Assembly: GCA_011033025.1 (NCBI GenBank)
Contig: WFMF01000013.1
Span: forward strand, 620,001-684,000
From: Beroe forskalii
Taxonomy: Eukaryota > Ctenophora > Nuda > Beroida > Beroidae
Reading direction: 5' to 3'
Length of the DNA stretch: 64,000 nt
Under the pieces are notes generated by a model. The model searched no databases, was not told where the DNA came from, and saw only the letters and a program-made list of their open reading frames with translations. A program made the translations under genes and the position numbers. This document shows positions 9,596 to 61,070 of this stretch, piece after piece (the stretch's first letter is position 1; each line of letters begins with the position of its first letter).

Positions 9596-11961
9596 AGGGG
9601 AGCCCAAAAAGCACGGGGGAGCCCGAGTTAGTATGGGGTAGCCCGAGTTAGTGTGGGGAGCCCGAGGTAGTAGGGGGAGCCCGAACAGCACGGGGGAGCC
9701 CAAGTTGGTATGGGGGAGCCCGAACAGCACAGAGGAGCCCAAGTTGGTATGGGGGAGCCCAAAAAGCACGGGGGAGTCCGAGTTAGTATGGGGTAGCCCG
9801 AGTTAGTGTGGGGAGCCCGAGGTAGTAGGGGGAGCCCGAACAGCACAGGGGAGCCCAAGTTTGTAAGGGGGAGCCCGAACAGAACGGGGGAGCCCAAGTT
9901 GGTATGGGGGAGCCCGAACAGCACGGGGGAGCCCAAGTTGGTATGGGGGAGCCCGAACAGCACGGGGGAGCCCAAGTTGTATGGGGAGCCCGAACAGCAC
10001 GGGGGAGCCTTCCAAGTTGGTATGGGGAGCCCGAACAGCACGGGGAGCCCAAGTTGGTATGGGGGAGCCCGAAGAACGGGGGAGCCTGTTGGTATGGGGG
10101 GGAGCCCGAACAGCACGGGGGAGCCCAAGTTGGTATGGGGAGCCCGAACAGCACGGGGAGCCCAAGTTGGTATGGGGGAGCCCGAACAGCACGGGGGAGC
10201 CCAAGTTGGTATGGGGGAGCCCGAACAGAACGGGGGAGCCCAAGTTGGTATGGGGGAACCCGAACAGAACGGGGGAGCCCAAGTTGATATGGGGGAGCCC
10301 GAACAGCACGGGGGAGCCCAATTTTTTGTGGGGAGCCCGAAAAGCACGGGGGAGCCCATGTTAGTATGGGGGAACCCGAACAGCACGGGGGAGCCCAAGT
10401 TGGTATGGGGGAGCCCGAACAGCACGGGGGAGCCCAAGTTGGTATGGGGGTCGGGGGAGCCCGAACAGAACGGGGGAGCCCAAGTTGGTATGGGGGAGCC
10501 CGAACAGAACGGGGGAGCCCAAGTTGGTATGGGGGAGCCCGATTAGAACGGGGGAGCCCAAGTTGGTATGGGGGAGCCCGTACTGCACGGGGGAGCCCAA
10601 GTTGGTATGGGGGAGCCCAAACAGCACGGGGGAGCCCAAGTTGGTATGGGGGAGCCCGATTAGAACGGGGGAGCCCAAGTTGGTATGGGGGAGCCCGAAC
10701 AGAACGGGGGAGCCCAAGTTGGTATGGGGGAGCCCGAAAAGCACGGGGGAGCCCAAGTTGGTATGGGGGAGCCCGAACAGCACGGGGGAGCCCAAGTTGG
10801 TATGGGGAGTCCGAACAGCAATGGGGAGCCCAAGTTGGCATGGGGAGCCTGATTAGAACGGGGGAGCCAAGTTGGCATGGGGAGCCTGTACTGCACGGGG
10901 AAGCCCGAGTTAATATGGGGGAGCCTGAGTTAGTATGGGGGAGCCCGAGGTAGTATGGGGGAGCCCGAGTTAGTGTGGGGGAGCCTGAGTTAGTATGGAG
11001 GAGCCCGAATTAGTATGGGGGAGCCCGAGTTAGTATGGGGAGCCCTAGTTAGTATGGGAGTATGGGGGAGCCCAAATTGGTATGGGGGAGCCCAAATTGG
11101 TATATGGGAGCCCAAGTTGGTGTGGGGGAGCCCGAGTTAGTATAGGGGAGCCCGAGTTGATAGGTGGATCCCAAGTTAGTATGGGGGAGCCCGAGTTATC
11201 ATAGGGGAGCCCGAGTTGGTAGGGGGGCCCAAATAAGTGTGGGGGAGCCCAAGCTATGGCGAAGCCCAGGATAAGGTGGAGCCAAGTACGGTGAAGCCCA
11301 AGGTGAGGGTGAGCCTCGTATGGGCGATCCCATGTTTCAGGGTGAGCCCAAGTTATGGTGGATCCTAGGATTAGGTGGAGCCAAGTACGGTGAAGCCCAA
11401 GGTAAGGGTGAGCCTGGTATGGGTGATCCCATGTTTCAGGGATAGCCCAGAACATCAGTGTAGCCCAGGATAAGGTGGAGCCAGGTACGGTGAAGCCCAA
11501 TGTAAGGGTGAGCCTGGTATGGGTGATGCCATGTTTGAGGGTGAGCCCAGAACATCAGTAAAGCCCGAGGTTCGGTGGAGCCTGGTATGGTGAAGCCCAA
11601 GATAAGGGTGAGTCTGGTACGTGTGAGCCCCTGTATCGGGGTTATCCCAGAACATCCGTGAAGCCCGAGGATCGGGTGAGCCTGGTATGGCGAAGCCCAA
11701 GGTAAGGGTGAGCCTGGTACGGGTGAGCCCCTGTATCGGGGTTATCCCAAGGCATTGGTGAAGCCCGAGGTCCGGTGGAGCCTGGTATGGCGAAGCCCAA
11801 GGTAAGGGTGAGTCTGGTATGGGCGAGACCGGGTGTGGAGGTGAGCCCCGGACAATCGGGGGATCCCTGGATTGGGGGGAGCGGTGTATAGGGGAGCTTT
11901 CATAAGAGGTTATCCCATGTGTAGGGGAAGCTTGGGTACGGTGAACTCTGTAATTTGTGAT

Positions 11962-23944: not shown

Positions 23945-26350
23945 CAAATTACAGAGTTCACCGTACGGAGGCTTCCCCTAAACCTGGGATCACCTCTAAT
24001 CACGGACTCCCCTGTACACTGCTCCCCTTAATCTAGGGCTCCCCCGATTGTCCGGGGCTCACCTCTATACACGGTCTCGCCCATACCAGACTCACCCTAT
24101 TGCCGGGCTTCACCATACCAGGCTCCACCGGACCTCGGGCTTCACCAATGCCTTGGGATAACCCCGATACAGGGGCTCACCCGTACCAGGCTCACCCTTA
24201 CCTTGGGCTTCGCCATACCAGGCTCACCCGATCCTCGGGCTTCACGGATGTTCTGGGATAACCCTGATACAGGGGCTCACCCGTACCAGACTCACCCTTA
24301 TCTTGGGCTTCACCATACCAGGCTCCACCGAACCTCGGGCTTCACTGATGTTCTGGGCTCACCCTCAAACATGGCATCACCCATACCAGGCTCACCCTTA
24401 CATTGGGCTTCACCGTACCTGGCTCCACCTTATCCTGGGCTACACTGATGTTCTGGGCTATCCCTGAAACATGGGATCACCCATACCAGGCTCACCCTTA
24501 CCTTGGGCTTCACCGTACTTGGCTCCACCTAATCCTAGGCTCCACCATAACTTGGGCTCACCCTGAAACATGGGATCGCCGATACGAGGCTCACCCTTAC
24601 CTTGGGCTTCACCGTACTTGGCTCCACCTTATCCTGGGCTTCGCCATAGCTTGGGCTCCCCCACACTTATTTGGGCTCCCCCCACCAACTCGGGCTCCCC
24701 TATGATAACTCGGGCTCCCCCATACTAACTTGGGATCCACCTATCAACTCGGGCTCCCTTTTAACTCGGGCTCCCCCCAACTTACCAACTTGGGCTCCCC
24801 ATACCAATTTGGGCTCCCCATACTCCCATACTAACTAGGGCTCCCCATACTAACTCGGGCTCCCCCATACTAACTCGGGCTCCTCCATACTAACTCAGGC
24901 TCCCCCACACTAACTCGGGCTCCCCCATACTACCTCGGGCTCCCCCATACTAACTCAGGCTCCCCCATATTAACTCGGGCCCCGTACCAACAGCTCCCCA
25001 GGCTCCCCCATACCAACTTGGGCTCCCTGGTTCTAATTGGGCTCCCCATACCAACTTGGGCTCCCCCGTGCTGTTCGGGCTCCCCCATACCAACTTGGGC
25101 TCCCCCGTGCTGTTCGGGCTCCCCCATACCAACTTGGGCTCCCCGTTCTGTTCGGGCTCCCCCATACCAACTTGGGCTCCCCCGTGCTGGCCCCATACCA
25201 ACTTGGGCTCCCCGTGCTGTTGGGCTCCCCATACCAACTTGGGGGGCCCCGTGCTTTTGGGGCTCCCCATACTAACTCAGGCCCCCACACTATGGGGGAG
25301 CCCAGTTACTACCTCAGCCCCCATACTAACTCAGGCTCCCCCGAGTTAACTGGGGGCTCCCCCTGCAGTACAGGCTCCCCCATACCAACTTGGGAGCCCC
25401 CATACTAACTCGGCTCCCATACCAACTTGGGGCCCCCATACAGGGGGGGCTCCCCATACCATGGCCTGGGGGCCCCCATACTATGGGGAGCCCCCCATAC
25501 TAACTCAGGGGAGCCCAAGTTGGTATGGGGAGCCCTAGAGTACCAATGGGGGGCCCAAAGTATGGGGGATAGGTGGGATCCCCAAGTTAGTATGGGGGGA
25601 GCCTGAGTTATCAATAGGGGAGCCCCCCATGCTGGGGGAGCCCAAATCAAGTGTGGGGGCCCAAGCTATGGCGAAGCCCAGGATAAGGTGGAGCCAAGTA
25701 CGGTGAAGCCCAAGGTAAGGGTGAGCCTCGTATCGGCGATCCCATGTTTCAGGGTGAGCCCAAGTTATGGTGGAGCCTAGGATTAGTGGAGCCGCACGGT
25801 GAAGCCCAAGGTAAGGGTGAGCCTGGTATGGGTGATCCCATGTTTCAGGGATAGCCCAGAACATCAGTGTAGCCCAGGATAAGGTGGAGCCAGGTACGGT
25901 GAAGCCCAATGTAAGGGGTGAGCCTGGTATGGGTGATGCCATGTTTGAGGGTGAGCCCAGAACATCAGTGAAGCCTGAGGTTCGGTGGAGCCTGGTATGG
26001 TGAAGCCCAAGATAAGGGTGAGTCTGGTACGGGTGAGCCCTGTATCGGGGTTATCCCAGAACATCCGTGAAGCCCGAGGATCGGGTGAGCCTGGTATGGC
26101 GAAGCCCAAGGTAAGGGTGAGCCTGGTACGGGTGAGCCCTGTATCGGGGTTATCCCAAGGCATTGGTGAAGCCTGAGGTCCGGTGGAGCCTGGTATGGTG
26201 AAGCCCCAAGGTAGGGGTGAGTCTGGTATGGGCGAGACCGGGTATAGAGGTGAGCCCCGGACAATCGGGGGATCCCTAGATTAGGGGAGCGGTGTATAGG
26301 GAGCTTTCATAAGAGGTTATCCCATGTGTAGGGGAAGCTTGGGTACGGTG
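23945..26350. mobile_element. Foldback element E4, loop-less and end-truncated
   Basis: The left arm (23945 to about 25505, CCC orientation) meets the right arm (about 25505-26350, GGG orientation) with essentially no spacer, making a 2.4-kb inverted structure. The left end starts at CAAATTACAGAGTTCACCGT and the right end stops at GGGTACGGTG, so both terminal hairpins and the CTTGCCAACCCCAT motif are missing. The unit order matches E2 and E3. Confidence 0.8.
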
Positions 26351-27301: not shown

Positions 27302-27401
27302 NNNNNNNNNNNNNNNNNNNNNNNNNNNNNNNNNNNNNNNNNNNNNNNNNNNNNNNNNNNNNNNNNNNNNNNNNNNNNNNNNNNNNNNNNNNNNNNNNNN
27401 N
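27302..27401. other. Assembly gap, 100 N
   Basis: Exactly 100 N, the conventional length for a gap of unknown size. It falls inside a foldback element. Confidence 0.98.
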
Positions 27402-30590: not shown

Positions 30591-31632
30591 TCTGTATTTC
30601 TAAGGAGATAACTTCATCCTCAGTTAGTTAATTTAATACTTCATTTATCATTAATGATTAAATTGTAAGATTTTCTAAGTTACGTCAGTAAATCTGGAAT
30701 CAGGCATGGAATTTTTGAAAATCTTGAAGCATACTGATTTCCATGATCATTATATTAAGTTCATTCAATATTTCATATTTTCATGCATCTTGTAAATTTC
30801 TTATAACTTGTTCTATTATTGCTTACATGATGCATTTCCCCCAGAAACTAGAAAAACCGGTTTCCAGCTGCAACACTTAATTTCATGTAAATTTATCAGC
30901 ATCTCATATTTCAGGTTTAACCAGTTTTTCATTTGATTAAAATTATCTACCCAACATCCATTTTCCTCCAGTATTTTTGGCCGATTAAAAATCAAGTAAA
31001 ATGAGCTGCAAGTTTGCAAATCTGACTTACTGATTTTCCCACACAAATCAAATTCTCCGTGCACGTGGGGTCTCTTTCAGGTAAAACCGGTTATATGATA
31101 ACACTATCAATGGTAACCAAAAATAGGAACAATTATTGCGTCTCTTACGCAAAGCTGGTACGACTGGATTTATTAGGTAAAAAATGGGTCACGCATAATT
31201 GAAGGAAAGAAAATCACGCGCGTGGCTTCAGAAAGTTGGGTATTAAAGGCAGAGCAGGAGCTCGGAATACAAGCGACGGCAGACATCTGATTCGATCAAT
31301 CTTTGACTTTCTCTAGAATAGAGGTGAGTTGTACTTATACAATCAGTTTATAATTGTTGCTTTAGAGGTTTCTACTTTTCATTCAATAATTAATCCATGT
31401 ACCTTACCTTAGATAATAGTAAGTTCCTTGATAATTAATACGTAAGTGGCGTATATTTTCAGTGATTAATGATTATGTGTAACGCAAATGTGTGCACATG
31501 GATCGATTAAATGAGGGATCGAAAAATCGAAATACGAATTCAAATACTAAACAATGGCCACAGCAACTTCATCAAATGCCGTTCCCTAAAAGCCTAAATT
31601 TCTTTTCCTAACATTTTTGCTTTTCCACAGCC
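30591..31632. promoter_or_regulatory. Divergent upstream region of TMEM234-like and SET genes
   Basis: Contains two AACCGGTT palindromes (30855-30862, 31085-31092). A probable non-coding first exon of the SET gene ends at AGAG|GTGAGT near 31322 and is spliced to TTTCCACAG at 31630. Confidence 0.4.
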
Positions 31633-35416: not shown

Positions 35417-38400
35417 TCACATTTCGTCATGGCCAGGCATGGGGAAAGATAGAGCAAACTTTGTCACTCTTTCTCGGAGATCTGATATTTTGACTTGAGT
35501 TTCAGGGTCACATTCCGCAATTTCGTGGAATTCTTTGAGCAGCTTCGATTCTTGTTTGGAATGTACGAACTTAGCTATCTCCACTCCTGCAAAAGAAGGT
35601 ACTCAGTTGAAATCGTAAAAATTCACAATTCAAAAACAATGCAACTCTGTGATTATCATTTCACCTGTATTTTTTGCTTATTGCTAAGAACTGTCAGAAT
35701 TGTTTTTATAGGATTCAAATGTTCAAGAGTTTGCAGTAAATAAATTCTAATTCCGGATGAATAAAATAAGTGATAAGTTAAACAGATAAAAGAGTTAACA
35801 TCCACTAGTTTACTAACCCTCGTGAATGAATTGAGCGACTGTCTCGAAGTCCTCTTCCTTAAAGTTCCGTGTGGTGAGAGCTGCCGTACCCAGCCGTACA
35901 CCTCCTGGCCTGAATGTAGGTTTTATCAGGTTAACTATTGAATTTGAATAATTGCTTTGGTAGACTACCATGACTACTGAGGATTGAAGAAACACTCAGA
36001 AGAAGGGTTGTATTTGCCGGAGCATGACACTATGAAAACTGGAAAATGATTATTGCCCGGGGGCAGCTTTTTCGAGAAAATTACTCTCAAAACATGACTT
36101 ATCCCACTCGCTATTACATGGAACACCTCCTGGCCTGAAAGCGTTCTTGTCTCCAGGGACGGTGTTCTTGTTGGCTGTTATGCTGCACCTGTCCAGGATC
36201 CTGTCTACTCTGTTCCCGTCTATACCACTTGGTCTCAGGTCCATCAACACGATGTGATTATCTGTACCGTCCGACACGATCTTATAGCCCTTGTCTTGCA
36301 GAGACTTACACAGCACTTTAGCATTGGTCGCTACCTGGATATTCACGCTTTATGATGGACAGAAACTGAGAAAAGTGACTAAGAATAGGCGAACACTCAG
36401 AAAGTATTCGAAAATTCTGCTTAGTGTAAATCATAAACAAGTATTTCCCAGACCCAATCAAACCCACCTCACCACCCTTTTCCCCTCACCACCCCCTCTT
36501 CCCCTCACCACCCCTCTTCCCCTCACCACCCCCTCTTCCTCTCACAAGTCACCACCCCTCTTCCTCTCAAAGTAGTCCCTCACCACAACAAGTCACCACC
36601 CCCTCCCCTCACCACCCTCTCCCTCACCGCCCCTTCCTCACCCTCCCCTCACCACCCCCTCTTCCTCTCACCACCCTCTCCCCTCACCACTCCCTTCCCC
36701 TCACCTGTTCCTGATACTCCTTGAACTCTGGTGTATCCGCCTCTTTGAGCGCAGTAGCGACCCCCGCTATGATGTGATTATGAGGCCCGCCCTGCAGGGA
36801 CGGAAACACTGCGAAGTTGAAGTCATCTTCCTTGACATAGGGAATAAGGCCCTTCCCAGGGACCTCCCGACTGCCCTTCCGGAAGAAGATGATGCCGGAC
36901 CGCGTGCCCCGTAGCGTCTTGTGGGTGGTGGTGGTCACCACGTCGCAGTGGGGGAAGGGAGACTTGATCACTCCCGCGCACACCAACCCTGGGAGAGATA
37001 GGGGAGTTAGTGGGAGTGGGGGAAGGGAGACTTGATCACTCCCTCACACACCAACCCTGGGAGGAGGGATAAGGGAGTTGGCGGGGGAGCAACCCTGGGA
37101 GGAGGGATGGGGGAGTTAGTGGGAGTGGGGGAAGGGTGACTTGATCACTCCCTCACACACCAACCCTGGGAGAAGGGATAGGGGAGTTAGTGGGAGTGGG
37201 GGAAGGGAGACTTGATCACTCCCGCGCACACCAACCCTGGGGGAAGAGATAGGGGAGTTAGAGGGAGTGGGGAAGGGAGACTTGATCACTCCCGCGCACA
37301 CCAACCCTGGGAGAAGATAGAGTGCCAGTTGGGGGGGGGGAGATGGAGGGCTGGGAGAGGAGATCAGTGGGGAGAGGACTGCGTTGTCAGTTGACACTAG
37401 AAGGATGTGGTACTGATAGGCCGAGCTAAATAATGGAAGATTCGAAAGGGGCGAGGCTGAGAGTGATTTCAGGAATTGAAGAAAATCACCAAATATTTTC
37501 AGCACCCGGACAAAAAGCCCGATCAAAATATTCTTGCAGTTATACTCATTCTATGAGGGAACTTGATAGTATGTTGATAACGACTTATTTTGCTTACATG
37601 CATGCAAAACTGTTACATTACACTCGAATTCGATCAAGTGATAAGATCGTGTTCCAGTTCATTATATTTTCTATCTCTTCTTCACTGCTTTGTAAAGAAC
37701 TGCTGACGCTTGTAAACACTCACACTTTTTTAAACAAGTCTGGGTTTTGCTTGCAATCCGTGTTTTTGCCAATGTATAAGTCACTGTGCACTCCGAGAAC
37801 TAGAAAAACCGGTTTGGAGTTTCCAACTTAACCCTGCACAGTCATTATTGCCCTTATTATCAGCCGCAAGTTTAATTCTTCCATGCGTCATGAACTGGTG
37901 TGATGCCGATAAAACAAATACCAAATTTTATTTCAACGCTTTGAGTCGTGACTTCTCCTTAATTTCATTGAAGTAAATCTGAGTTTATCTTATCAGAACG
38001 AGAAAAACCGGTTTTCTTATTCAATTAACTAACATCATACATGAAAATGACGTTGGTGATAGAGACTTCAAGTACCAAAAAACCTCCGCTGCGGTCAGTA
38101 TAAATCAAGACATCAAAAATAGGAAAGAATCCCACAACTGACCACTTACGTCCTGCTATTCATGTTAATAAAGATTCACAGATAACTTACCACTGATTTT
38201 TTTTATTTCGAAGGTTTTACTTCCATTCCAACAGCTGTAACAGCCAATGACAGGAATCGAAGGGTTCAAATGACGGTTAAGGAAGTGTAATTCATACTTT
38301 CTTCGCCCGAGACTTCGCTGCACTACATTTAACCTCCTGCACAGTTTCCCACGCTCGGCTGAGTGAACCGTGTGGCTGCTAAGATGAGAATTCTCACCCT

Positions 38401-41302
38401 TAGCACGGTAGGCAAGGCCGGGAATCGAACCACCAACCTCGCGATTGAAAGTGCGACGCTCTAACCACTGCGCTACCTGGCCACTAAAATGAGCCATGTC
38501 GGCAAGGAACTGACATTTCACTACTTACCACTTATATGAGCCAAGTCAGCAAGGAACTAAAACTTCACAAACTACTTACCGCTGATATGCGCCATGTCGG
38601 CAAGGAACTGACACTTCATTACTTACCACTGATATGAGCCATGTCGGCAAGGAACTGACACATAATAACTTACCACTGATATGAGCCATGTCGGCAAGGA
38701 ACTGACACATAATAACTTACCACTGATATGAGCCATGTCGGCAAGGAACTGACACATAATAACTTACCACTGATATGTGCCATGTCGGCAAGGAACTAAC
38801 ACATAATAACTTACCACTGATATGTGCCATGTCGGCAAGGAACTGACACTTCATTACTTACCACTGATATGTGCCATGTCGGCAAGGAACTGACACATAA
38901 TAACTTACCACTGATATGAGCCATGTCGGCAAGGAACTAACACTTCATTACTTACCACTGATATGAGCCATGTCGGCAAGGAACTAACACTTCATTACTT
39001 ACCACTGATATGTGCCATGTCGGCAAGGAACTAACACTTCATTACTTACCACTGATATGAGCCATATCGGCAAGGAACTAACACTTCATTACTTACCACT
39101 GATATGTGCCATGTCGGCAAGGAACTGACACTTCATTACTTACCACTGATATGTGCCATGTCGGCAAGGAACTGACACATAATAACTTACCACTGATATG
39201 AGCCATGTCGGCAAGGAACTAACACTTCATTACTTACCACTGATATGAGCCATGTCGGCAAGGAACTAACACTTCATTACTTGCCACTGATATGTGCCAT
39301 GTCGGCAAGGAACTAACACTTCATTACTTACCACTGATATGAGTCATATCGGCTAGGAACTAACACTTCATTACTTACCACTGATATGAGCCATGTCGGC
39401 AAGGAACTAACACTTCATTACTTACCACTGATATGTGCCATGTCGGCAAGGAACTAACACTTCATTACTTACCACTGATACGAGTCATATCGGCTAGGAA
39501 CTAACACTTCATTACTTACCACTGATATGTGCCATGTCGGCAAGGAACTGACACTTCATTACTTACCACTGATATGTGCCATGTCGGCAAGGAACTGACA
39601 CATAATAACTTACCACTGATATGAGCCATGTCGGCAAGGAACTAACACTTCATTACTTACCACTGATATGAGCCATGTCGGCAAGGAACTAACACTTCAT
39701 TACTTACCACTGATATGTGCCATGTCGGCAAGGAACTAACACTTCATTACTTACCACTGATATGAGTCATATCGGCTAGGAACTAACACTTCATTACTTA
39801 CCACTGATATGTGCCATGTCGGCAAGGAACTAACACATAATAACTTACCACTGATATGTGCCATGTCGGCAAGGAACTGACACATAATAACTTACCACTG
39901 ATATGAGCCATGTCGGCAAGGAACTAACACTTCATTACTTACCACTGATATGAGCCATGTCGGCAAGGAACTAACACTTCATTACTTACCACTGATATGT
40001 GCCATGTCGGCAAGGAACTAACACTTCATTACTTACCACTGATATGAGTCATATCGGCTAGGAACTAACACTTCATTACTTACCACTGATATGTGCCATG
40101 TCGGCAAGGAACTAACACATAATAACTTACCGCTGATATGCGCCATGTCGGCAAGGAGCCACGCCCCTGTGATGTCGGCTATCTTCCTCATTCTTGCGTA
40201 GTCAATCTCCCGGGAGTAGGCGCTGGCTCCCGCTATTAGCATACGGGGCCGGAAGTAACGGACCTGAGAGAGACATGTGGTAGAGTTCGTCACATCAAAA
40301 CCTTCAGAATTCCTTCTTTCAAAATGTGTGATCCAGGAAAACTTTGCAGGTCAATCTGTCAATAAAACGCCGAGGTATTAAAGTTACTGTAGAAGTGAAG
40401 ATAGAAGATTTTCTTTAAAAACTGGGAATTAGACCTGGTCTTCGAGTTTATCGTAGTCTATGATCCCAGTCTTAGGATCCACGCTGTACGGCATGCTCTC
40501 AAAGTAGATGCTGGTGGCAGATATCCTCTTCTTGTCCGTCATGTAGCCGTGAGTGAGGTGGCCTCCGTCAGGCAGATCCAGGCCCATCACTCGGTCATGT
40601 GGCTTCAGCAGGGCCGTGGGAGATCAGTTATAATCACTTGTGATGAGTAGAATTGAAGAAAATCAATTTTAGTCGATTTACAAGCTGTGTTTCTTCAGAT
40701 GATATTCTTTAAATATAATCTCACAATATAACCTGACTATACACCTTCAATAGGGCCGTGTAGACTGCGAAGTTAGCAGGTGACCCGCTGTACGGCTGCA
40801 CGTTGACTCCCCACTCCTCCTCACTCAGCTTGAAGCACTTCAGGGCCCGCTTTATGCACAGGTTCTCAATCTGGTCCACGTACTCGTTACCCCCGTAGTA
40901 ACGAGCCCCGGGCAGCCCCTCGCTGTACTTGTTAGTGAGACACGAGCCCGCCTGCGGTTTTATAAGTGAGACACGAGCCCGCCTGCGGTTTTATAAATGA
41001 GACACGAGCCAGCCTGCGGTTTTATAAATGAGACACGAGCCAGCCTGCGGTTTTATAAATGAGACACGAGCCAGCCTGCGGGATTGCTAGTGAGACATGG
41101 GCCCGCCTGCGGGTTTGCTATTCTAAAAAGTACCAGCTAACAGTTTAGGTAGACTCACCGCTTCCATAACAGCTTTGGAAGTGAAGTTTTCGCTAGCGAT
41201 AAGTTCAAGGCAAGACTTCTGTCGTATCTTCTCCTGTTTGATCAGCTCGTAAAGCTCAGGGTCTGTGTCAGATAGTGCTGTGTTACCGTCACACTTAGAC
41301 AT
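35417..41302 (-). CDS. SHMT: Serine hydroxymethyltransferase, 465 aa, eight exons
   Basis: Exons in gene order: 41302-41159, 40951-40745, 40602-40435, 40263-40131, 36988-36705, 36334-36127, 35901-35818 and 35586-35417. All phases agree. The enzyme converts serine plus tetrahydrofolate to glycine plus 5,10-methylene-THF using PLP. Landmarks: [73 protein letters not shown] with the PLP lysine, [11 protein letters not shown], and the C-terminal [12 protein letters not shown]. The length fits the cytosolic type (human SHMT1 483 aa) and there is no leader. Introns 1, 4 and 5 have splice junctions repeated in tandem, and introns 2 and 6 have duplicated ends. Intron 4 is 3.1 kb and also holds a SINE. 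MTHFR, the next enzyme using its product, lies 1.6 kb upstream on the same strand. Confidence 0.95.
36464..36704 (-). repeat. SHMT: GTGAG-rich array at the SHMT exon 5 donor
   Basis: In gene orientation the donor CAG|GTGAGGGGAAGGGAGTG is followed by repeated 15-25 bp units, each beginning G|GTGAG and made of AGGGG. It offers about ten look-alike donors in the first 240 bp of the intron. Confidence 0.8.
36989..37330 (-). repeat. SHMT: Tandem copies of the intron 4/exon 5 acceptor junction
   Basis: Units of about 72 bp contain the intron end CTCCCAG followed by exon-like GGTTGGTGTG and GGGAGTGATCAAGTCTCCC, the first 36 or so bases of exon 5. Four full copies lie upstream of the true exon (near 37033, 37141, 37212, 37286), plus a partial one near 37085. 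Confidence 0.85.
38189..40130 (-). repeat. SHMT: About 34 tandem copies of the exon 4/intron 4 donor junction
   Basis: The period is 47 bp. In gene orientation each unit is 28 bp like the end of exon 4 (TCCTTGCCGACATGGC, then CATATCAGTG, coding LADMAHISG) plus 19 bp starting GTAAGT and ending TTAG. The true exon 4 donor is at 40131; the copies run from there to 38524, and one more is split by the SINE at 38203-38488. Confidence 0.95.
38203..38488 (-). mobile_element. tRNA-derived SINE inside the donor array
   Basis: In minus orientation it starts at about 38485 with a tRNA-like head: A box TAGCGCAGTGGTTAGAGCG and B box GGTTCGATTCC, about 70 bp in all. A non-tRNA body follows, and an A-rich tail (TTTTTTTTATTT on the plus strand at 38205-38216). 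It interrupts one array unit: ACTGAT on one side, ATGAGCC on the other. Confidence 0.75.
40952..41121 (-). repeat. SHMT: Five extra copies of the intron 1/exon 2 acceptor junction
   Basis: Period 31 bp. In gene orientation each unit reads TATAAAACCGCAG then GCGGGCTCGTGTCTCACT, that is intron end plus the first 18 bases of exon 2 (AGSCLT). The copies drift with distance from the true exon; the outermost two have lost the TATAAAAC part. Confidence 0.9.
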
Positions 41303-42900: not shown

Positions 42901-45900
42901 CTAAGATGCTCTATTCAAACCAGCCCTGCCATTTGAGTTTTGATGATCGAGTATGTGCGTGAAATTGGAATCCAGCTTCCCGTTATTCCCATTGTTGAGA
43001 TCGGTACTTTCACTGGTTCTGTTCTTGTCAGCAATAACATCGTCCAGGAACTCCCAGAGGTTCTTACCTCCTGTAAAATGGTCAAATTAAGTGGTTGAGA
43101 GCCGGAATACTTTGGAAGAAATGTCGCTTCAAACAAAATACAATTCAAAACTATTATAGCACTATTGCCCTCATCCTCAGTATTTCGTGACAAGATGGAA
43201 ACCAAATCCTATGCAAATTATCAATAGCTTTTGATTGCGTTTATATCAACCCAATCGAATGACACTAAGAAAACACAAACCTGTCACAAAGTCATTGTCA
43301 ATTAGACAAACAAGATACATGTCATCCACAATCTCATCCAGAATCCTCCTTGAATCAGACTCCTTGCCATAGATCACTCCTGAAAAGATATGAATTTAAA
43401 GTAGGCTCAATTTATTCATGCACTGGAACATGACTAAGATCAATGTCTCAAGGGTGACATCCATTTTAACTGAACAATAAAATACCTTTGTAGGGTAAAA
43501 CGGGGGATATCAGTGAGTAAGTGCACAGACATATATGGTGAGAAAGTGCATTTAGCCAAATTTCAGAGATACCACCCACCCCATATTGCAGTTACTCACA
43601 ATAATCCAATTAATACTAAGTGATTTTTGAAAAATTTTCAGGCACCACCCCAAAATATCGGCTAATTTGAATATTTAGACAGTTATGACAGAATCTTATT
43701 TCAACAAAATGCAACATTTTGATGAATGGTAGATTTTGCACGCTAGATCAGATCAGCAAATGCAAATTTCTGCCTTGATATAATAATAAAAGAATAACTT
43801 TCTATAACTTTCTATTGGTTCACTAATACACCCGCATAAGCTATAAAATAGTGATAGGATAGGGATGCTTAATATATTATATTGTAACCAAAAGATATGG
43901 ACTGATCGGACTACAGCACTTCTGTACTGTAGTTCATAGCCTAAAATATGTATTGATAGCAATATGATCCCTTTCATGTTAGGAATGTTTAATTTGTTTT
44001 CTATAGTTCATTGGAGAAATTATGAAAAAATTATTATTCACGAGTCACGACAAGCTTGAATCTCAACCATAACAATCATGGTATGGATCTGCATACAAGA
44101 AGACAATAATAATTGCAAATTATGAATATTTAATAACCTAACAGTTTGATTTTATCATGGGAAAAACTGTTGATTGTCGAACATTCAAATTTTACAACGA
44201 AAAAGTACACGCACAACTTCACACGGTAAAACTCAGTAGGTATGGTCGTGTAGACGACAGAAAGCCGTATCAAAGTATTCTGGGATTGGCCGGGATTAGA
44301 AAAACATTCTAATCTCATTGAAGTTACTGTTATGCTTCAGTACCATTCAGTATTTTGTCTCCAGACCGGCTCAGTACACGATCATTATCCGCGCCAAGTA
44401 GATTGTGTAGAGAGTATAGAGATAGTAATGCTGATAATGTAATATCTTAATATGTATGTATGATATGGTGTAATCGTGTAATCAATATCTAAATGAACTG
44501 GCTAGATATAGTTCTGGATATAGTTCTATAATTAGTTGTGACTACAATTTTGAGATACAATCGTATACCACATCGAAATGCTTTGAAATACCTATATTTA
44601 CATCCCGACAAAGCTACATATATTGCAGTTTTTGCTGCACTTACTAACAAATGAGTAGGTGATATTCGCCATGACCTTGGGACACCACCCATTTTCCAAG
44701 AATTCCCTATGAGTAACTGCAATGTGAGTAACTGCATTTCTGAATTTTGGAGCACGACCACCACGTGAGTAAGTGGGCATAAGGTCTGTGCACTTACTCA
44801 CTGATATCCCCCGGGGTAAAAGATGAGTTTATAATATCCAAATCCATTGTGAGTAAAAACCATTAATAACCAACATACCCCACTTCTCCTGCCAAAGTGC
44901 GAAGGCTTCATCCTTCCAGATGAGGAAGGTTTTGTAGTCAGCAATCGTTGGTTGGAGGATTTCTCTTCCAGGGAACACGCCCCACGTCAAGGCAACAGAC
45001 GAGTTCTTTTTGTAGTTTGTGTAGCAGTGTGAGGATTTGCATTTCAGGTGGTCTGGTGTTTCAATAACCATGAAGATTATATATATTTGAAAAAAGGGTT
45101 ATATTATATATGTGCAATAATTAGTGGATATATAGCCATATAGGTGAAAATGAACTTGCTTGCTATCAACTTTCTTATATGAATGCCAAAGTGTGATACC
45201 TAAATGTTGATACTTTCATAGGAAACGGCAAAATACTCACCAGTCATTTCCAGATTTATTTGATATTGTGTAGCTCAGAACAGGATACTTTTTCAGTTTT
45301 TCAATTATCATTTTAGTGTCTTTGGCTTGTGCAAAGAATTCTATGTATGCTTTCTGGTATATGTATCCATTCTTTGGCCCCCAGCCAAAAGTTTGGTCAT
45401 TTGACTTAGCACAATTCACAGCTGGCTGAGAATTAACAGTGAACAAGTAGTTACTATTAAGTGTGAGAATTCTGTCTTGAATCAACATTGATTCTGGCTT
45501 AAGCTGATCATCTGCCCAAGGAAGGGACATAACATTGTAGCCTTGTCTGTTTGGAGTTCCTTTAACAAATGACATGAAGATGTCTCTGATGTCATCGATG
45601 TTCTTGATATCTTTACCCCACATCTCACGCAACTTCTTCGCATTAGCAGGCTTTGACATATAAAATAAATGATAATCATCTAAGTCACCAAAAGCGGGGT
45701 TACTAGAATTACCCCACCTGCCATTGGGAAATTCATCCCATTCCTTAGTTCTTGTCATATAACTCTTGGGTCTCATAGCCCAGTAGACTGGTCTCACATC
45801 CTCTGATGCCAGTCTGTCACTATTGCCTGTTGGCTGCCATGGAAAGTGCCTCCTACTATTATCCTTACTATATAGGGACAGTTCTTTAACAAGTTTATTT

Positions 45901-46880
45901 GGACCGATTTCTCGGTTTAGAGTGTATATATGAACACCAGGTGTTAGACTCAATTCAAACAATGATTCAATGAGTTCAACGCTGTAATTAACTCCAATTT
46001 CTCTGATTTTTTCATCATCATCTTTGTTATCTTCGATTGTTTCAGCTAGAAGCTTAGGAACAGCAACATTGCATGCAATTTTCTTGAGTTTTCGAAGTGA
46101 GTCATAATTCTGAATGGGCAATATACCAGCAATTATGGGGATGTTGATCCCAGCTTTGGCAGCATCATTGACAAATCTTTCGTACTTTTGAACATCAAAA
46201 ATAAGCTGGCTCACAATGAAATCTGCTCCTGCATCAACTTTCTGCTTTAGATGTACAAGTGACTCTTCATAAGTTGAGTCTGGATGTCCTTCTGGATAGC
46301 CAGCAACAGCTATCACAAATGTATCCCCAAATTCAGCTCGAATCCAAGCCACAAATTCAGAAGCATACTTGAATTCACTGTCAGAATTATTATCACCAGA
46401 AAGGGCCATTATATTTCGAATGCCATGAGACCTTGCTGTGGTTAAGATTTCTTTAAGATCTGAAGAATCTAGACCATCACTCGTTACATGCAACATTGCT
46501 TCAATTCCACAATAATTCACAGCAGTGGAAGCAATTGTCATTGAACTGCAAACTTTACTTGAGGCAGAAGATTTTCCAGCATGCCATGTTATGTCCATGA
46601 ATAAGGGTTTACCTTTGTTCATCCGATCCATTCTGCCAACCAAATTAGCAGCTCCATCAGATGTGCGAGGAGGGAAGAACTCTAGAGAATAAAACTTGGT
46701 GCCATTTTTAATTTTCGACTTTATTTTTTCTATAAGAGTCCTGTTATCATCATGACAATATTCAAAGTTTGTTGGGGATTCACACAGTTCAAATTTCATT
46801 TCACTGGAATCAGAAATTGATTCAACCTCCCAACGACTTTCCATGTCATCTTCTGCCATGAGGTTTCCAATGCAAGGCAT
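42901..46880 (-). CDS. MTHFR: Methylenetetrahydrofolate reductase
   Basis: Exons 46880-45241, about 45052-44876, 43379-43281 and 43070-42901 on the minus strand, roughly 700 aa. It reduces 5,10-methylene-THF to 5-methyl-THF with FAD and NADPH. Exon 1 carries the catalytic barrel ([38 protein letters not shown]) and most of the SAM-binding regulatory domain ([53 protein letters not shown]). Exon 2 has [14 protein letters not shown] and [17 protein letters not shown], exon 3 [13 protein letters not shown], and exon 4 a short divergent tail. The N-terminal Ser/acidic stretch resembles the phosphorylated region of animal MTHFR. The family loop ALRGDP reads ALSGDN here. The exon 1 donor (phase 2) and the obvious exon 2 acceptor do not match in phase, so that junction is unresolved. 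Intron 2 holds a 1.3-kb transposon. Confidence 0.92.
43501..44813. mobile_element. 1313-bp inverted-repeat transposon in MTHFR intron 2
   Basis: The terminal inverted repeat of about 30 bp begins CGGGGGATATCAGTGAGTAA (continuing GTGCACAGAC) at 43501 and is mirrored at the right end (to 44813). The 8-bp target duplication GGGTAAAA is perfect (43493-43500 and 44814-44821). There is no transposase coding, so it is non-autonomous. An 8-bp duplication fits hAT, P or Merlin-type elements; I do not recognise the TIR. Confidence 0.9.
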
Positions 46881-47498
46881 TTTAAATCCTGTTTAAAAAG
46901 TTAAAAGTCAGATTAACAATTATAATACCTTTTGTAGCACTATTTGATGAGGACATATACATTATACTGCCATGATACAGTAGAACAGCCCTAAATAACT
47001 GAATACAAACATGATGTGACGAAAAATTCACAATGAACAGCCATATTAATTGAATCATAAGAGATAATTTCATTCAAGCAAAATTCAACAAAAATAGTAC
47101 TCAGAGATCAATAAATGTTATTGCTTTTATGATAGAAATACCAGCAGCAAATCTCTACTCAACTGTCTTATAAATGGTAAGTAAGTGATAATAGGTCTTA
47201 AAGAATTCACCTTTTTCAATCATAGCTGATGTCAACCACTGCTACTAATATACTAATACATTATGCTCTGTTAAGCAAATGATAGTATGATATCACTTCT
47301 ATAGATTCAAAGAATTCTTTAAAATGTTAACTACCATCATCTACTAAGATACACATGAGTACATTTGAAATATTGGTCACAGACAAATTTAATTGGATGT
47401 TTGTCATTCATAACTGAGAAATTCATTTCATATTTGTATCATTACAATATAGATATCATTCTGTTATTAAGGGGTATGAAATTAGATGGAGTTTGATA
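46881..47498. other. Between YEATS4 stop and MTHFR start
   Basis: AT-rich sequence with no recognised motif. It contains the MTHFR 5' region and the YEATS4 3' UTR. Confidence 0.35.
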
Positions 47499-48122: not shown

Positions 48123-51100
48123 ATTAATGCTCCCCCTATTCCCGGGATCACAAATTACAGAGTTCACCGTACGGAGGCTTCCCCTAAACCTGGGATCACC
48201 TCTAATCACGGACTCCCCTGTACACTGCTCCCCTTAATCTAGGGCTCCCCCGATTGTCCGGGGCTCACCTCTATACACGGTCTCGCCCATACCAGACTCA
48301 CCCTATTGCCGGGCTTCACCATACCAGGCTCCACCGAAACTCGGGCTTCACCAATGCCTTGGGATAACCCCGATACAGGGGCTCACCCGTACCAGGCTCA
48401 CCTTATTGCCGGCTTCGCCATACCAGGCTCCACCAGATCCTCGGGCTTCACCAATGCCTTGGGATAACCCCGATACAGGGGCTCACCCGTACCAGGATCA
48501 CCCTTACCTTGGGCTTCACCATACCAGGCTCCACCCGAACCTCGGGCTTCACTGATGTTCTGGGCTCACCCTTCAACATGGGATCACCCATACCAGGCTC
48601 ACCCTTACCTTGGGCTTCACCATAACAGGCTCAATCGAACCTCGGGCTTCACTGATGTTCTGGGCTATCCCTGAACATGGGATCACCCATACGAGGCTCA
48701 CCTTTACCTTGGGCTTCACCGAACTTGGCTCCACCTTATCCTGGGCTTCACCATAACTTGGGCTCACCAAGATACATGGGATCGCCCATACGAGGCTCAC
48801 CCTTACCTTGGGCTCCACCGACCTTGGCTCCACCTTATCCCTGGGCTTCACCATAGCTTGGGCTCCCCACACTTACATAGGCTCCCCCTACCAACTTGGG
48901 CTCCCATATGATAACTCGGGCCCCATACTTACTTGGGATCCACCTTCCAACTTGGGCTCCCCTATACTAAATCGGGCTCCCCCACACCAACTTGGGCTCC
49001 CATATACCAATTTGGGCTCCCCCATACCAATTTGGGCTCCCCCATACTCCCATACTAACTAGGGCTCCCCATACCAACTCGGGCCCCCATACCAACTCGG
49101 CCCCCATACCAACTCAGGCTCCCCCATACCAACTCGGGCCCCCCATACCAACCTCGGGCCCCCATACCAACTCAGGCCCCCCATATTAACTGGGCTCCCC
49201 CGTGCAGTACGGGGCTCCCCCATACCAACTTGGGCTCCCCTGTTCTAATCGGGCCCCCATACCAACTTGGGCTCCCCTGTGCTGTTCGGGCCCCCATACC
49301 AACTTGGGCTCCCCCTGTTCTGTCTGGCCCCCCCAACTTGGGCCCCCCAACAACTGGGCCCCCCCGTGCTGTCTGCCCCCATACCAACTTGGGGCCCCCG
49401 TGCTGTGTCTGCCCCCATACCAACATGGGCCCCTGTGCTGCTGGGCTCCCCATACCAACTTGGGCTCCCCGTGCTGTTCGGCCCCCATACCAACTTGGGC
49501 CCTGTTCTGTCTGGGCCCCATACCAACTTGGGCTCCCCCGTTCTGTTCAGGCTCCCCCATACCAACTTGGGCTCCCCGTGCTGTCTGGGCTCCCCCATAC
49601 CAACTTGGGCTCCCCCGTGCTGTTCGGGCTCCCCATACCAACTTGGGCCCCTGCAGTTCGGGCCTGGGCCCCCATACCAACTTGGGCCCCTGTACCAACT
49701 CGGCCCCCATACCAACTTGGGCTCCCCTGCTGTTCGGGCTCCCCATACCAACTTGGGCTCCCTGTTCTGTTCGGGCCCCCCAACCCCCATACCAACTTGG
49801 GCCCCCTGTTGGCCTGCCCCCATACCAACTTGGGCTCCCCTGTGCTGTTTGGGCTCCCCATACCAACTTGGGCTCCCTGTGCTGTTCGGGCTCCCATACC
49901 AACTTGGGCCCCTGTTCTGTTCGGGCCCCCATACCAACTTGGGCCCCCCTGTTCGGGCTCCCCATACCAACTTGGGCTCCCCCACCCCCATACCAACTTG
50001 GGCAACTTCTGGGCTCCCCCATACCAACTTGGGGCCCCCATACTGTAACTTGGCCCCCCATACCAACTTCAGGCCCCCACACCAACTCGGGCCCCCATAC
50101 CAAACTTGGGCCCCCCATACTAACTCAGGCCCCCATACCAACTTGGGCCCCCTGCAACTTGGGCTCCCCGGGCCCCCATACCAACTTGGGCCCCTGTGCT
50201 GTTCGGGCTCCCCCATACCAACTTGGGCCCCTGTGCTGTTGGGCCCCCCATACCAACTTGGGCTCCCCTGTGCTGTTCGGGCTCCCCCATACCAACTTGG
50301 GCTCCCCCTGTGCTGTTCGGGCTCCCCATACCAACTTGGGCTCCCCTGTGCTGTTCGGGCTCCCCATACCAACATGGGCTCCCTGTGCTTTCGGCCCCCA
50401 TACCAACTTGGGCTCCCCTGTGCTGTCTGGGCTCCCCCATACCAACTTGGGCTCCCCCTGTTCGGGCTCCCCATACCAACTTGGGCTCCCCAGGCCCCAT
50501 ACCAACTGGGCCTCCCCCCTTCGGGCCCCCCATACCAACTTGGGCTCCCCAGTTCCCTGCCCCCATACAACTTGGGCTCCCCCCAGTGCTGTCCCCCCCC
50601 CATACCAACTTGGGCTCCCCTGTTCGGCTCTATACCAACTTGGGCTCCCCGTGCTGTTCTGGCTCCCCCATACCAACCATCCCCAGTACTGGGCTCCCCC
50701 ATACCAACTTGGGCTCCCAGTTTGCTGGGGCTCCCCCACCAACAAAATTGTTTGGGCTCCCTTTGGGTTCCCCCCCTTTGGGCTCCCCCATACCAATTTG
50801 GGCTCCCCATACTGTTGGGCTCCCCTCCCCCACCTTGGGCTCCCCCATTTCCCCCCCGACTCTTTGGGGCTCCCCTGGCCAACTCGGGCTCCCCTGTGCT
50901 GTTTGGGCTCCCCCATACTAAACTCAGGCTCCCCATACTATTTGGCCCTGCTGGCAGACCCCCATACCAATCTGAATCCCCATACCAACTTGGCCTCCTG
51001 TAACTGTTTGGGCCCCCCTGTGCAACTTGGGCCCCCTTTGCTCTGGCCCCCCATACAAGTCGGCTCCCCCCCCCCTGGCATATACCAACTCAGACTCCAA

Positions 51101-52457: not shown

Positions 52458-54645
52458 TACCCAAACTATTACTTGAATGTTTATCTCATCCCAATTTGGT
52501 ATGGGGAGCCCGAACAGCACGGGGAGCCCAAGTTGGTATGGGGAGCCCGAACAGAACGGGGGAGCCCAAGTTGGTATGGGGGAGCCCGAACAGCACGGGG
52601 GAGCCCAAGTTGGTATGGGGGAGCCCGAACAGCACGGGGAGCCCAAGTTGGTATGGGGAGCCCGAACAGAATGGGGGAGCCTCCAAGTTGGTATGGGGAG
52701 CCCGAACAGCACGGGGAGCCCAAGTTGGTATGGGGAGCCCGAACAGCACGGGGAGCCCAAGTTGGTATGGGGAGCCCGAACAGCACGGGGGAGCCTGTTG
52801 GTATGGGGAGCCCGAACAGCACGGGGAGCCCAAGTTGGTATGGGGAGCCCGAACAGCACGGGGAGCCCAAGTTGGTATGGGGAGCCCGAACAGCACGGGG
52901 GAGCCCAAGTTGGTATGGGGAGCCCGAACAGCACGGGGAGCCCAAGTTGGTATGGGGGAGCCCGAACAGCACGGGGAGCCCAAGTTGGTATGGGGGAGCC
53001 CGAACAGCACGGGGGAGCCCAAGTTGGTATGGGGGAGCCCGAACAGAACGGGGGAGCCCAAGTTGGTATGGGGAGCCCGAACAGCACGGGGGAGCCCAAG
53101 TTGGTATGGGGGAGCCCGAAAAGCACGGGGGGAGCCTGTTGGTATGGGGGAGCCCGAACAGCACGGGGGAGCCCAAGTTGGTATGGGGAGCCCGAACAGC
53201 ACGGGGGAGCCCAAGTTGGTATGGGGGAGCCCGAACAGAACGGGGGAGCCCAAGTTGGTATGGGGGAGCCCGAACAGCACGGGGGAGCCCAAGTTTGTGT
53301 GGGGAGCCCGAAAAGCACGGGGGAGCCCAAGTTGGTATGGGGGAGCCCGAACAGCACGGGGGAGCCCAAGTTGGTATGGGGGAGCCCGAACAGCACGGGG
53401 AGCCCAAGTTGGTATGGGGGAGCCCGAACAGAACGGGGAGCCCAAGTTGGTATGGGGGAGCCCGAACAGCACGGGGGAGCCCAAGTTGGTATGGGGGAGC
53501 CCGATTAGAACGGGGGAGCCCAAGTTGGTATGGGGGAGCCCGTACTGCACGGGGGAGCCCGAGTTAATATGGGGGAGCCTGAGTTAGTATGGGGGAGCCC
53601 GAGGTAGTATGGGGGAGCCCGAGTTAGTGTGGGGGAGCCCGAGTTAGTATGGAGGAGCCCGAGTTAGTATGGGGGAGCCCGAGTTAGTATGGGGAGCCCT
53701 AGTTAGTATGGGAGTATGGGGGAGCCCAAATTGGTATGGGGGAGCCCAAATTGGTATATGGGAGCCCAAGTTGGTGTGGGGGAGCCCGAGTTAGTATAGG
53801 GGAGCCCGAGTTGATAGGTGGATCCCAAGTTAGTATGGGGGAGCCCGAGTTATCATAGGGGAGCCCGAGTTGGTAGGGGGAGCCCAAATAAGTGTGGGGG
53901 AGCCCAAGCTATGGCGAAGCCCAGGATAAGGTGGAGCCAAGTACGGTGAAGCCCAAGGTAAGGGTGAGCCTCGTATGGGCGATCCCATGTTTCAGGGTGA
54001 GCCCAAGTTATGGTGGAGCCTAGGATTAGGTGGAGCCAAGTACGGTGAAGCCCAAGGTAAGGGTGAGCCTGGTATGGGTGATCCCATGTTTCAGGGATAG
54101 CCCAGAACATCAGTGTAGCCCAGGATAAGGTGGAGCCAGGTACGGTGAAGCCCAATGTAAGGGTGAGCCTGGTATGGGTGATGCCATGTTTGAGGGTGAG
54201 CCCAGAACATCAGTGAAGCCCGAGGTTCGGTGGAGCCTGGTATGGTGAAGCCCAAGATAAGGGTGAGTCTGGTACGGGTGAGCCCCTGTATCGGGGTTAT
54301 TCCAGAACATCCGTGAAGCCCGAGGATCGGGTGAGCCTGGTATGGCGAAGCCCAAGGTAAGGGTGAGCCTGGTACGGGTGAGCCCCTGTATCGGGGTTAT
54401 CCCAAGGCATTGGTGAAGCCCGAGGTCCGGTGGAGCCTGGTATGGCGAAGCCCAAGGTAAGGGTGAGTCTGGTATGGGCGAGACCGGGTATAGAGGTGAG
54501 CCCCGGACAATTGGGGGATCCCTAGATTAGGGGGAGCAGTGTATAGGGGAGCTTTCATAAGAGGTTATCCCATGTGTGTACTTAGAATAGGGGAGCCCTT
54601 GTCACCAAAACGGATACATGGGCTCCCCCTACTTGCCAACCCCAT

Positions 54646-58873: not shown

Positions 58874-61070
58874 ATGGGACTACGGAGTTGGAACAGGAAG
58901 TCATCCTATCTGATCGGGGGCCTCACAGTCACCATCATAGTGATACTGACCAGCCACTCCAATGTCGGGGAGGGGAATGGGGGCGCACAACTCTCTGAGG
59001 TTTCCAATTTTATTCCGTGTTTGTTTTAGATATGGTGCTGACTACCTTAGGAGGTGTATTTATGTTGAGTAATATTTTGGTGTTTACAAATTTGGAGGGG
59101 TGCAATTTTGGGATCTTTCTTAAGTCATTAATTACTCTAGTTAACATATGATAATGACGTCATTTTGAACTGTCATGGTGTGTGAAAAGATGGGGATTTT
59201 TCCGAAAAATCTTCAAATTACAACCTCCATAAATACACCTCCTAAGGTAATTACAATATTAACTTTATAGGCCTCTTTGGTGTATTAAAATTAGACATCT
59301 GTCTGAACATCTCAATTCCTACAGGAATGAAATATAAAAACCCTGCCAACCCCTACATATTTCCCATTTCAGATTGACAACTCCAGCAACAATCAGGAAT
59401 ACCCTGTTGCCAGTGACACCGACAAGTCTTCTTCCTTGGCACTGGAAATCAAACGAACTTCACTCAGGAAAATAGTCATTGCGAAACATGGTCTGAAAAG
59501 CGTCCAGGGACCGGGCGATGCTCAGCATAAAACACCTAATGCTGACATAAACTCAGATACAAATAATAGTGTTCAGGATGTGACACATAAACACTTTTCA
59601 GAAGAAGACACCCTTAATGGACCCATAGACGCAGTTTATCTTTGGGTGAATGGTTCAGATCCAGACTTCATTCGGAGACTTAATCATTACAAAGCAGTCT
59701 TTAATGCAGGAGAACCATTAGCAGAAAGTTCCGTGGGTGTAAGTCGTTTTAAGGACAATGGAGAACTTTTCTATTCCCTTAGATCACTCAACATGCATGC
59801 CCCATGGATCCGTAATGTCTATATCGTCTCATCAGACGGCCAGGTGCCCTCGTGGATGGACATCACTAACCCACGGATCAAAATCATCCCAGATTCCACA
59901 ATTTTTAGGAACCAAAGCCACACCCCAACATTCAGTTCTCCTGCCATTGAACTAAACATGCATAACATTCCTGGCTTATCAGAAAACTTCATCGAGTTTA
60001 ACGATGACTGGTTCCTCGGGCAACCCGTTACTCCGCAAGATTTCCTGACGCCGGATGGGGCGTACAAAATACGACGGGCGTGGCCGTCGCCAGCGTCGTG
60101 TAAGGAAACTGACGATAACTACGCTAAGTCACTGTGCCATGTCAATGCTATTTACGATTCTCTCTACGGCAAAACGGCAAGGAAGGTTATAGCCCATGCT
60201 CCAGCCATCTTTAACCGCGGTGTGATCCAGGATTTCCGATCCAGGTAAATTTACCTATTAATCGTCGGCATGGAAAATGTTGCGGAATGTACGTAAGTAT
60301 ATTAAATTCTATGTTTCAACTTGTTTCTACCAGTAGAATATGGTGTCCCAATAAATGATGGCGAGTGAAATATTTCCCCAAATTCGCATCATTCAATTTC
60401 CCGATTTATTCTAACCGATACTCTTGTCCGCAGTTTCCCACAAGAAGTTGAGTCCACATCTTCTAAGCACTTTCGCAGCCCTGACGATCTTCAATTCCAG
60501 TTCGCTTATTATTATTTCCTAATCAACGAGCCCAGATTTCGTAGTCTGACGGGCGCTCTGTCGGCAATTGATACCAATGCAGACACAATCATCTCATTGG
60601 ATGAATTAGAACAATTTCTTACCAGTAATCCCGATCATCTGATATCAGAGGAAACATGGTCGGAGATTCGACAAGCATTTTTGGGCTGCCAGATCGAGAC
60701 AAACAAAACATCCGTGGATGTATCTGATATCATGAACTGCGTCGAAATTTCGTACCAACTTGAAAGCAAAGTTGTCAGAGCTAAGAAGTACAGGCAGGAA
60801 ATAGTTAAGGAGGACGATGTAATCTTTGCTGCCATATCAAACGATTTAAAGTATGTTACAACAGCGTTAGACAAAACTCGGACTTCACCGAAAAAGTTCG
60901 TATCTCTCAATGATGATAGAAATCACGAAGATAAAAACGATGAAGAGGTTTCGAGGATATATACGAACTTTTTAGAAAATATGTTCCCTATCCCAAGTCC
61001 TTTTGAGCTTCCGAAAGGCGAACGAAATCAGTATTATTATCTTAAAGATTTTAATTTGGAGCAATTTTGA
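58874..61070 (+). CDS. Stealth-family GlcNAc-1-phosphotransferase, GNPTAB-like, 544 aa
   Basis: Exons 58874-58999, 59373-60244 and 60434-61070 join in frame. Exon 1 gives a short basic N-terminus and one hydrophobic segment (LIGGLTVTIIVILTS), a type II signal anchor placing the enzyme in the Golgi lumen. Stealth blocks: CR1 DAVYLWVNGSDPDF, CR2 FKDNGELFYSLRSLNMHAPW then IRNVYIVSSDGQVPSWM, CR3 NFIEFNDDWFLGQPV, then RSPDDLQFQFAYYYFL and a CR4-like FVSLNDDRNH. An EF-hand loop (IDTNADTIISLDELEQF) sits where human GNPTAB has DTDQSG. The C-terminus MFPIPSPFELP matches the end of the GNPTAB beta subunit. GNPTAB adds GlcNAc-1-phosphate to mannose on lysosomal enzymes. At 544 aa against 1256 in human, it lacks the Notch-like repeats, the DMAP region and the protease-site spacer. 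Intron 1 contains a MITE. Confidence 0.88.
59045..59247. mobile_element. TA-target MITE, copy 2, in intron 1 of the Stealth gene
   Basis: Same TIR as the copy at 58301 (CCTTAGGAGGTGTATTTATG and CATAAATACACCTCCTAAGG), TA on both sides, interior in the opposite orientation to copy 1. Confidence 0.8.

Follow-up and report, generated by a model that had tools for sequence, protein, structure and literature searches.

The SHMT gene and its surroundings

A complete SHMT gene lies on the minus strand of the window analysed here (the whole 64-kb stretch of Beroe forskalii DNA), running in eight exons from 41302 to 35417 and encoding a product of 465 amino acids without an internal stop. Exon matches were obtained in the window by tblastn with E. 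coli GlyA as query. The gene model places exon 1, which starts with the ATG and is supported by translation and homology as well, at 41159-41302, exon 2 at 40745-40951, exon 3 at 40435-40602, exon 4 at 40131-40263 (its authentic donor being at 40131/40130), exon 5 at 36705-36988, exon 6 at 36127-36334, exon 7 at 35818-35901 and exon 8 with the stop codon at 35417-35586, all on the minus strand. All seven introns of this model are GT-AG, and six of the seven are between 142 and 370 nt long. The identification as SHMT made in a first-pass annotation of the sequence was confirmed by Pfam (SHMT, E 1.3e-196). Among the best 60 of 85 matches to solved structures, the nearest to the product were mitochondrial SHMT chains, the best of which shares 64.2% identity with it over 461 columns; we take these best chains to be the human enzyme. 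The gene looks functional.

Pfam analysis of seven proteins in the window, SHMT included, identified MTHFR, YEATS, a HAD hydrolase and two Stealth stretches, with one protein falling into no family. MTHFR lies directly upstream of SHMT, also on the minus strand (45237-46892, where both the MTHFR and the MTHFR_C families are recognized, and about 42901-45063), and two folate-pathway enzymes are accordingly neighbours. Its first visible intron, placed by eye with a donor near 45241 and an acceptor near 45052, joins out of frame, and a MITE-like insert with apparent terminal inverted repeats and GGGGATATCAGTGAGTAAGTGCACAGAC-like ends was noted, again by eye, in an MTHFR intron at about 43501-44816. 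The Stealth domains CR1-CR2 and CR3-CR4 occupy two open stretches on the plus strand (59331-61070) that probably belong to one gene, presumably in the same family as the GlcNAc-1-phosphotransferase GNPTAB. TRF delineated large blocks, members of a dispersed family, in both orientations (1-909, 2592-4784, 6780-8200, 9597-11827, 24067-26236, 48261-50848 and 52490-54482), with internal tandem repeats of about 20/39 bp (GGGCTCCCCCATACCAACTT-type) and about 100 bp. Also visible by eye is a AACCGGTTTTTCTAGTT-like motif that recurs at about 37800-37820, 37995-38020 and 30840-30870.

Repeated splice junctions in SHMT

Intron 4 contains a donor-junction array of 47-bp units with a 6-unit higher-order pattern (38481-40130, minus strand), as defined by TRF, unit alignment and donor sites; the TRF call itself covers 38481-40157 with a period of 47, 35.6 copies and 92% matches. 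The first-pass annotation had described copies of the exon 4/intron 4 junction at 38189-40131, with about 35 near-identical donors and units made of 28 exonic bases, GTAAGT and 13 further intronic bases ending in TTAG. The unit alignment bears out the source and the composition of the unit, which comprises 28 exonic and 19 intronic bases (GTAAGT plus 13) in register with exon 4. The array likewise lies where it had been placed, although that span also takes in a 284-bp insert, and the TTAG ending applies to 21 of the 32 inner units, the other 11 ending in TCAG. As regards the donors, the junction 16-mer (CATATCAGTG|GTAAGT, allowing two mismatches at most) was found at 36 places in the 64-kb window, always on the minus strand and always within 38185-40140, whereas 100 dinucleotide shuffles averaged 0.02 occurrences and never gave more than 1. 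The array is therefore real, and the earlier figure becomes 36 donor sites, the authentic exon 4 donor and 35 further copies, one of which sites is GCAAGT and the remaining 35 GTAAGT.

The 32 inner units have an average identity of 93.4% and fall into 11 types. Divergence is greater in the units at the array edges than inside, a pattern expected when a minisatellite is homogenised internally. Three of the five variable exonic sites among the inner units are third positions, too few to judge selection on the coding sense of the copies, and this explanation was set aside. The order of the units tends to recur at lag 6, where 11 of 26 pairs are identical and the mean difference is 1.88, a degree of recurrence equalled by 27 of 5000 permutations over lags 2 to 12. 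Lags 9 (7/23) and 15 (8/17) are elevated too, and the higher-order arrangement is not one clean period; it points to a probable turnover in blocks.

Misassembly is frequent in long tandem arrays of near-identical units, and the copy number or even the entire array could have been produced in this way. The window does contain a run of exactly 100 Ns (27302-27401), which probably marks a scaffold gap whose length is arbitrary, and among the tandem copies of exon-intron boundaries described in amphioxus genes as mirages, one is reported to have been aberrantly assembled in a draft genome (PMC3087553). Against misassembly stand the 11 distinct inner unit types in their non-random order, the insert that interrupts the array and the occurrence of three separate arrays with different periods, and an artefact is in our judgement quite improbable. 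The exact donor copy number, which rests on one assembled copy, may be wrong.

The insert (38197-38480, 284 bp, minus strand) lies in the last donor unit and appears, on our reading of its tRNA-like head and A-rich tail, to be SINE-like. Beyond it, a junction search recovered a remnant of the donor array with the last GTAAGT copy (38185-38196, minus strand), and since the insert sits inside a unit the donor array is the older of the two. No second copy of the insert was found in the 64-kb window. A structured-RNA or tRNA explanation was rejected, given that ARAGORN found no tRNA and Rfam no family at its gathering threshold. The proximity of the insert to the array within intron 4 could suggest that a transposable element had captured the junction and supplied the units, an origin that the first-pass annotation had itself raised as the alternative to exon 4. 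The insert is, however, a later arrival, and all 37 of the 37 unit BLAST hits fall within 38481-40157, with none elsewhere in this window, which makes a transposon origin highly unlikely. An exact match to the 28-base unit pattern was not found in viral contigs either.

Two acceptor arrays had been missed by the first-pass annotation, and both were recognized by TRF and acceptor searches. At the 3' end of intron 4 (36989-37316, minus strand), 71-bp units include a pyrimidine tract, a CAG and 42 bases from the start of exon 5. Together with the authentic site there are six acceptors here, of which one is truncated, and CTAAC, a possible branch site, occurs no more than 25 bases upstream of four of the six. 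In intron 1 (40936-41116, minus strand), 31-bp units contain the first 18 bases of exon 2, again giving six acceptors with the authentic one. Both ends of intron 4 and the acceptor of intron 1 are thus arrayed, with three different periods (47, 71 and 31 bp) at three junctions of a single gene. A G-rich minisatellite of about 19 bp extends from the exon 5 donor (36467-36706, minus strand, TRF); it includes hardly any exonic part, and intron 5 holds 11 copies of GGTGAG.

Simple direct repeats were found at the boundaries of two other introns by repeat scoring. Intron 6 (35898-36139, minus strand) has a perfect 17-bp direct repeat, TTCAGGCCAGGAGGTGT, over both splice junctions, with copies at 36123-36139 and 35898-35914 and AG|GT at both ends. 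Intron 2 (40603-40760, minus strand) has the end of exon 2 repeated at its own 3' end, the two 16-bp copies (40745-40760 and 40603-40618) being identical at 14 of 16 positions. The scores are 34 for intron 6, where 200 shuffles reached at most 21, and 22 for intron 2, where they reached at most 18; no flanking direct repeats above the shuffle maxima were found in the remaining five of the seven SHMT introns. Counted over the whole gene, arrays that include exonic sequence occur at 3 of 14 junctions, and direct repeats flank 2 of 7 introns. In the adjacent MTHFR gene, a 17-base probe (up to three mismatches) detected no further junction copies in any of three introns, which were placed by eye and searched without a shuffle control; given this lack of copies in MTHFR, junction copying may be specific to the gene or the region.

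Splice outcomes and the choice of sites

When every intron 4 donor was joined with every acceptor (36 x 6 = 216 pairings), a single pairing, that of the authentic outermost sites, gave an intact protein. In the other 215 the last junction lies over 55 nt downstream of a stop, so that nonsense-mediated decay would be expected. Intron 1 behaves similarly, with an intact reading frame from one of its six acceptors, the authentic one. The first-pass statement that only the first donor keeps the frame needs some qualification. By length alone every third donor (141 nt) restores the frame, but the extended exon has an in-frame read-through stop starting at its nucleotide 229, shortly after the third donor counted with the authentic one, which leaves the first as the only productive site. 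From the reading frame we infer that the first donor and the last acceptor would be the sites in use. The frame outcomes alone are no proof of selection, because most read-through into an intron would meet a stop.

These outcomes bear on whether the donor array could be a functional regulator, its copy number setting the fraction of productive SHMT mRNA or its 36 U1 sites providing a platform by which the transcript is protected or slowed. The perfect GTAAGT at 35 of the 36 donor sites would be compatible with such a role and, with 215 of the 216 pairings unproductive, array length could in principle tune output. Intact donors are, however, expected without selection where copies are homogenised, and long intronic extensions of any kind usually meet stops. 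Amphioxus mirages are moreover said, in the available parts of two reports, to leave splicing undisturbed (PMC3087553; PMC3902484). A regulatory function is on balance improbable.

Neither sequence nor predicted folding visibly favours the authentic donor over its copies. This donor reads GTAAGTT, a form common to nine others, while 23 of the 33 further units in the regular array carry GTAAGTA, which offers one more potential U1 pair than GTAAGTT. Its predicted accessibility is 0.0015, with the other 35 donors ranging from 0.0015 to 0.1076; none of these 35 is predicted to be less accessible than the authentic site (values rounded to four places), and sequestration of the inner donors by local RNA folding was accordingly rejected as an explanation of general validity. 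With no predicted advantage, the choice of the authentic donor must rest on position or on context that was not modelled. When duplicated donors compete in cis in classical experiments, the intron-proximal one is often preferred, the opposite of what is needed here.

Exon definition is the likely source of such a positional rule. The intron 3 acceptor would pair with the first donor met and the exon 5 donor with the acceptor closest to it, which would keep the exons as short as possible; the same rule would choose the first donor or the last acceptor in each of the three arrays. Introns as small as 142-370 nt are often taken to be spliced by intron definition, and exon definition is less secure in this gene because six of its seven introns are of that size.

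Origin of the arrays and comparison with mirages

Canestro (2002) is reportedly the source of the name "mirages". The first-pass annotation had stated that no described gene has a donor junction expanded in this manner, a claim that does not stand, as the amphioxus mirages are a published precedent (PMC3087553; PMC3902484). In the text available, they are reported from Adh3 and the globins BflGb6 and BflGb9 (PMC3087553), to which a second paper adds PGBD5, with TnC also cited (PMC3902484), so that the cases published in these two papers are cephalochordate. The Adh3 data and RT-PCR of the globins suggest that regular splicing is kept despite the mirages (PMC3087553). As far as the available text goes, mirages are minisatellite-like tandem units across a 5' or 3' exon-intron boundary, with AG/GT signals retained in many of the copies, and the Adh3 units of 10-72 bp cover the 31, 47 and 71 bp found in SHMT (PMC3087553). 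As in mirages, exonic and adjoining intronic sequence is present in each of the 47-, 71- and 31-bp units, and the authentic junction lies at the edge and gives a normal open reading frame (465 amino acids, from one of the 216 pairings).

Some differences were apparent within the same sources. SHMT has 36 donor sites, compared with 3 and 6 units in two BflGb6 haplotypes (PMC3087553), and it is set apart from the amphioxus cases by having both ends of one intron and a third junction arrayed. A normal mRNA is a feature reported for amphioxus mirages; for SHMT it would follow from use of the outermost junctions. Length instability, between haplotypes or somatic, is a further mark of a mirage, and in the one assembled SHMT copy the higher-order pattern points to turnover in blocks. 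Judged by sequence-based features, the SHMT arrays appear to belong with the mirages, of which they would be unusually large examples. Literature searches, with subscription papers mostly outside their coverage, brought up no junction array in SHMT among the papers listed, as judged by title and abstract start.

Two other systems share parts of this picture, in so far as the available text describes them. Human segmental duplications contain variable repeats at exon-intron boundaries, on average four units of 30 bp, and like the SHMT arrays they represent minisatellite expansion at such boundaries that alters introns (PMC2812944). They make new introns or splice variants in recent paralogues, in contrast to the single SHMT gene with its one predicted productive pattern. 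Intron gain by tandem genomic duplication or repeat expansion likewise involves duplicated segments with splice signals that turn intronic (PMC2395259); the SHMT donor array, however, can be explained without a new intron, although introns 2 and 6 could be cases. Earthworm metallothionein was rejected as a precedent, its available description being of minisatellites in intron 1 and duplications of exon 4, not of junction arrays.

Taking these comparisons together, we favour, with a probability of about 0.8, the reading of the donor array as a mirage that arose by mutation, is close to neutral and is tolerated since splicing keeps the outermost junctions. The array would have been founded when 47 bp spanning the exon 4/intron 4 junction were duplicated in tandem, and would then have grown by unequal exchange or slippage, also in multi-unit blocks. 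Independent founders of 71 and 31 bp would have arisen at the intron 4 and intron 1 acceptors, respectively. As long as the outermost junctions (first donor, last acceptor) were kept, all copies would leave with the intron, and other pairings would run into a premature stop and probably be removed by nonsense-mediated decay. The sequence itself shows the anatomy of the arrays, the higher-order pattern, the frame outcomes and the want of a visible advantage for the authentic donor; the mutation mechanism, exon definition, decay and near-neutrality are all parts of this scheme that we infer.

Why the arrays lie at junctions was examined with a simple null, in which exonic duplications usually break the protein, while intronic ones are silent and so are those across a junction, provided that the outer junction survives. 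After the intron lengths had been adjusted for the arrays, the probability that a junction is included came to 0.20 for a silent duplication of 31 bp, 0.30 for one of 47 bp and 0.41 for one of 71 bp, and to 0.025 for all three, figures that are rough, depend on assumed pre-array intron lengths and leave out the G-rich exon 5 donor array (0.13 alone). On this rough model strong targeting of junctions would be unneeded, and some real targeting is possible.

Boundary duplications might, beyond this, be a machinery of intron birth through which SHMT acquires or shifts its introns, with introns 2 and 6 as its older products. Intron gain from mirages has been proposed (PMC3087553, in the text available), the flanking direct repeats with AG|GT that would be looked for were found at intron 6 (17 bp, perfect), and this repeat and that of intron 2 (14/16) both exceed their shuffle maxima. 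The remaining five of the seven introns are nevertheless within their shuffles, and gene conversion or target-site duplication would also leave such flanks; intron birth is on the whole doubtful. A broader reading, put forward tentatively and at less than even odds, would be that junction-spanning duplication goes on in an animal lineage beyond the lancelets, at both ends of the same introns, and has left 36 x 6 site pairs to choose from. The spliceosome would resolve these by position (outermost sites, shortest exons) and not by strength, and some older events would have become introns 2 and 6.

With several boundary-duplication arrays, this one gene is relevant to the ways in which introns become longer and new ones arise. 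SHMT intron 4 is in addition a natural competition experiment, with dozens of donors predicted to be equal to or stronger than the authentic one and several complete-looking acceptors, and it could be used to test whether exon definition or the order of transcription decides between them.
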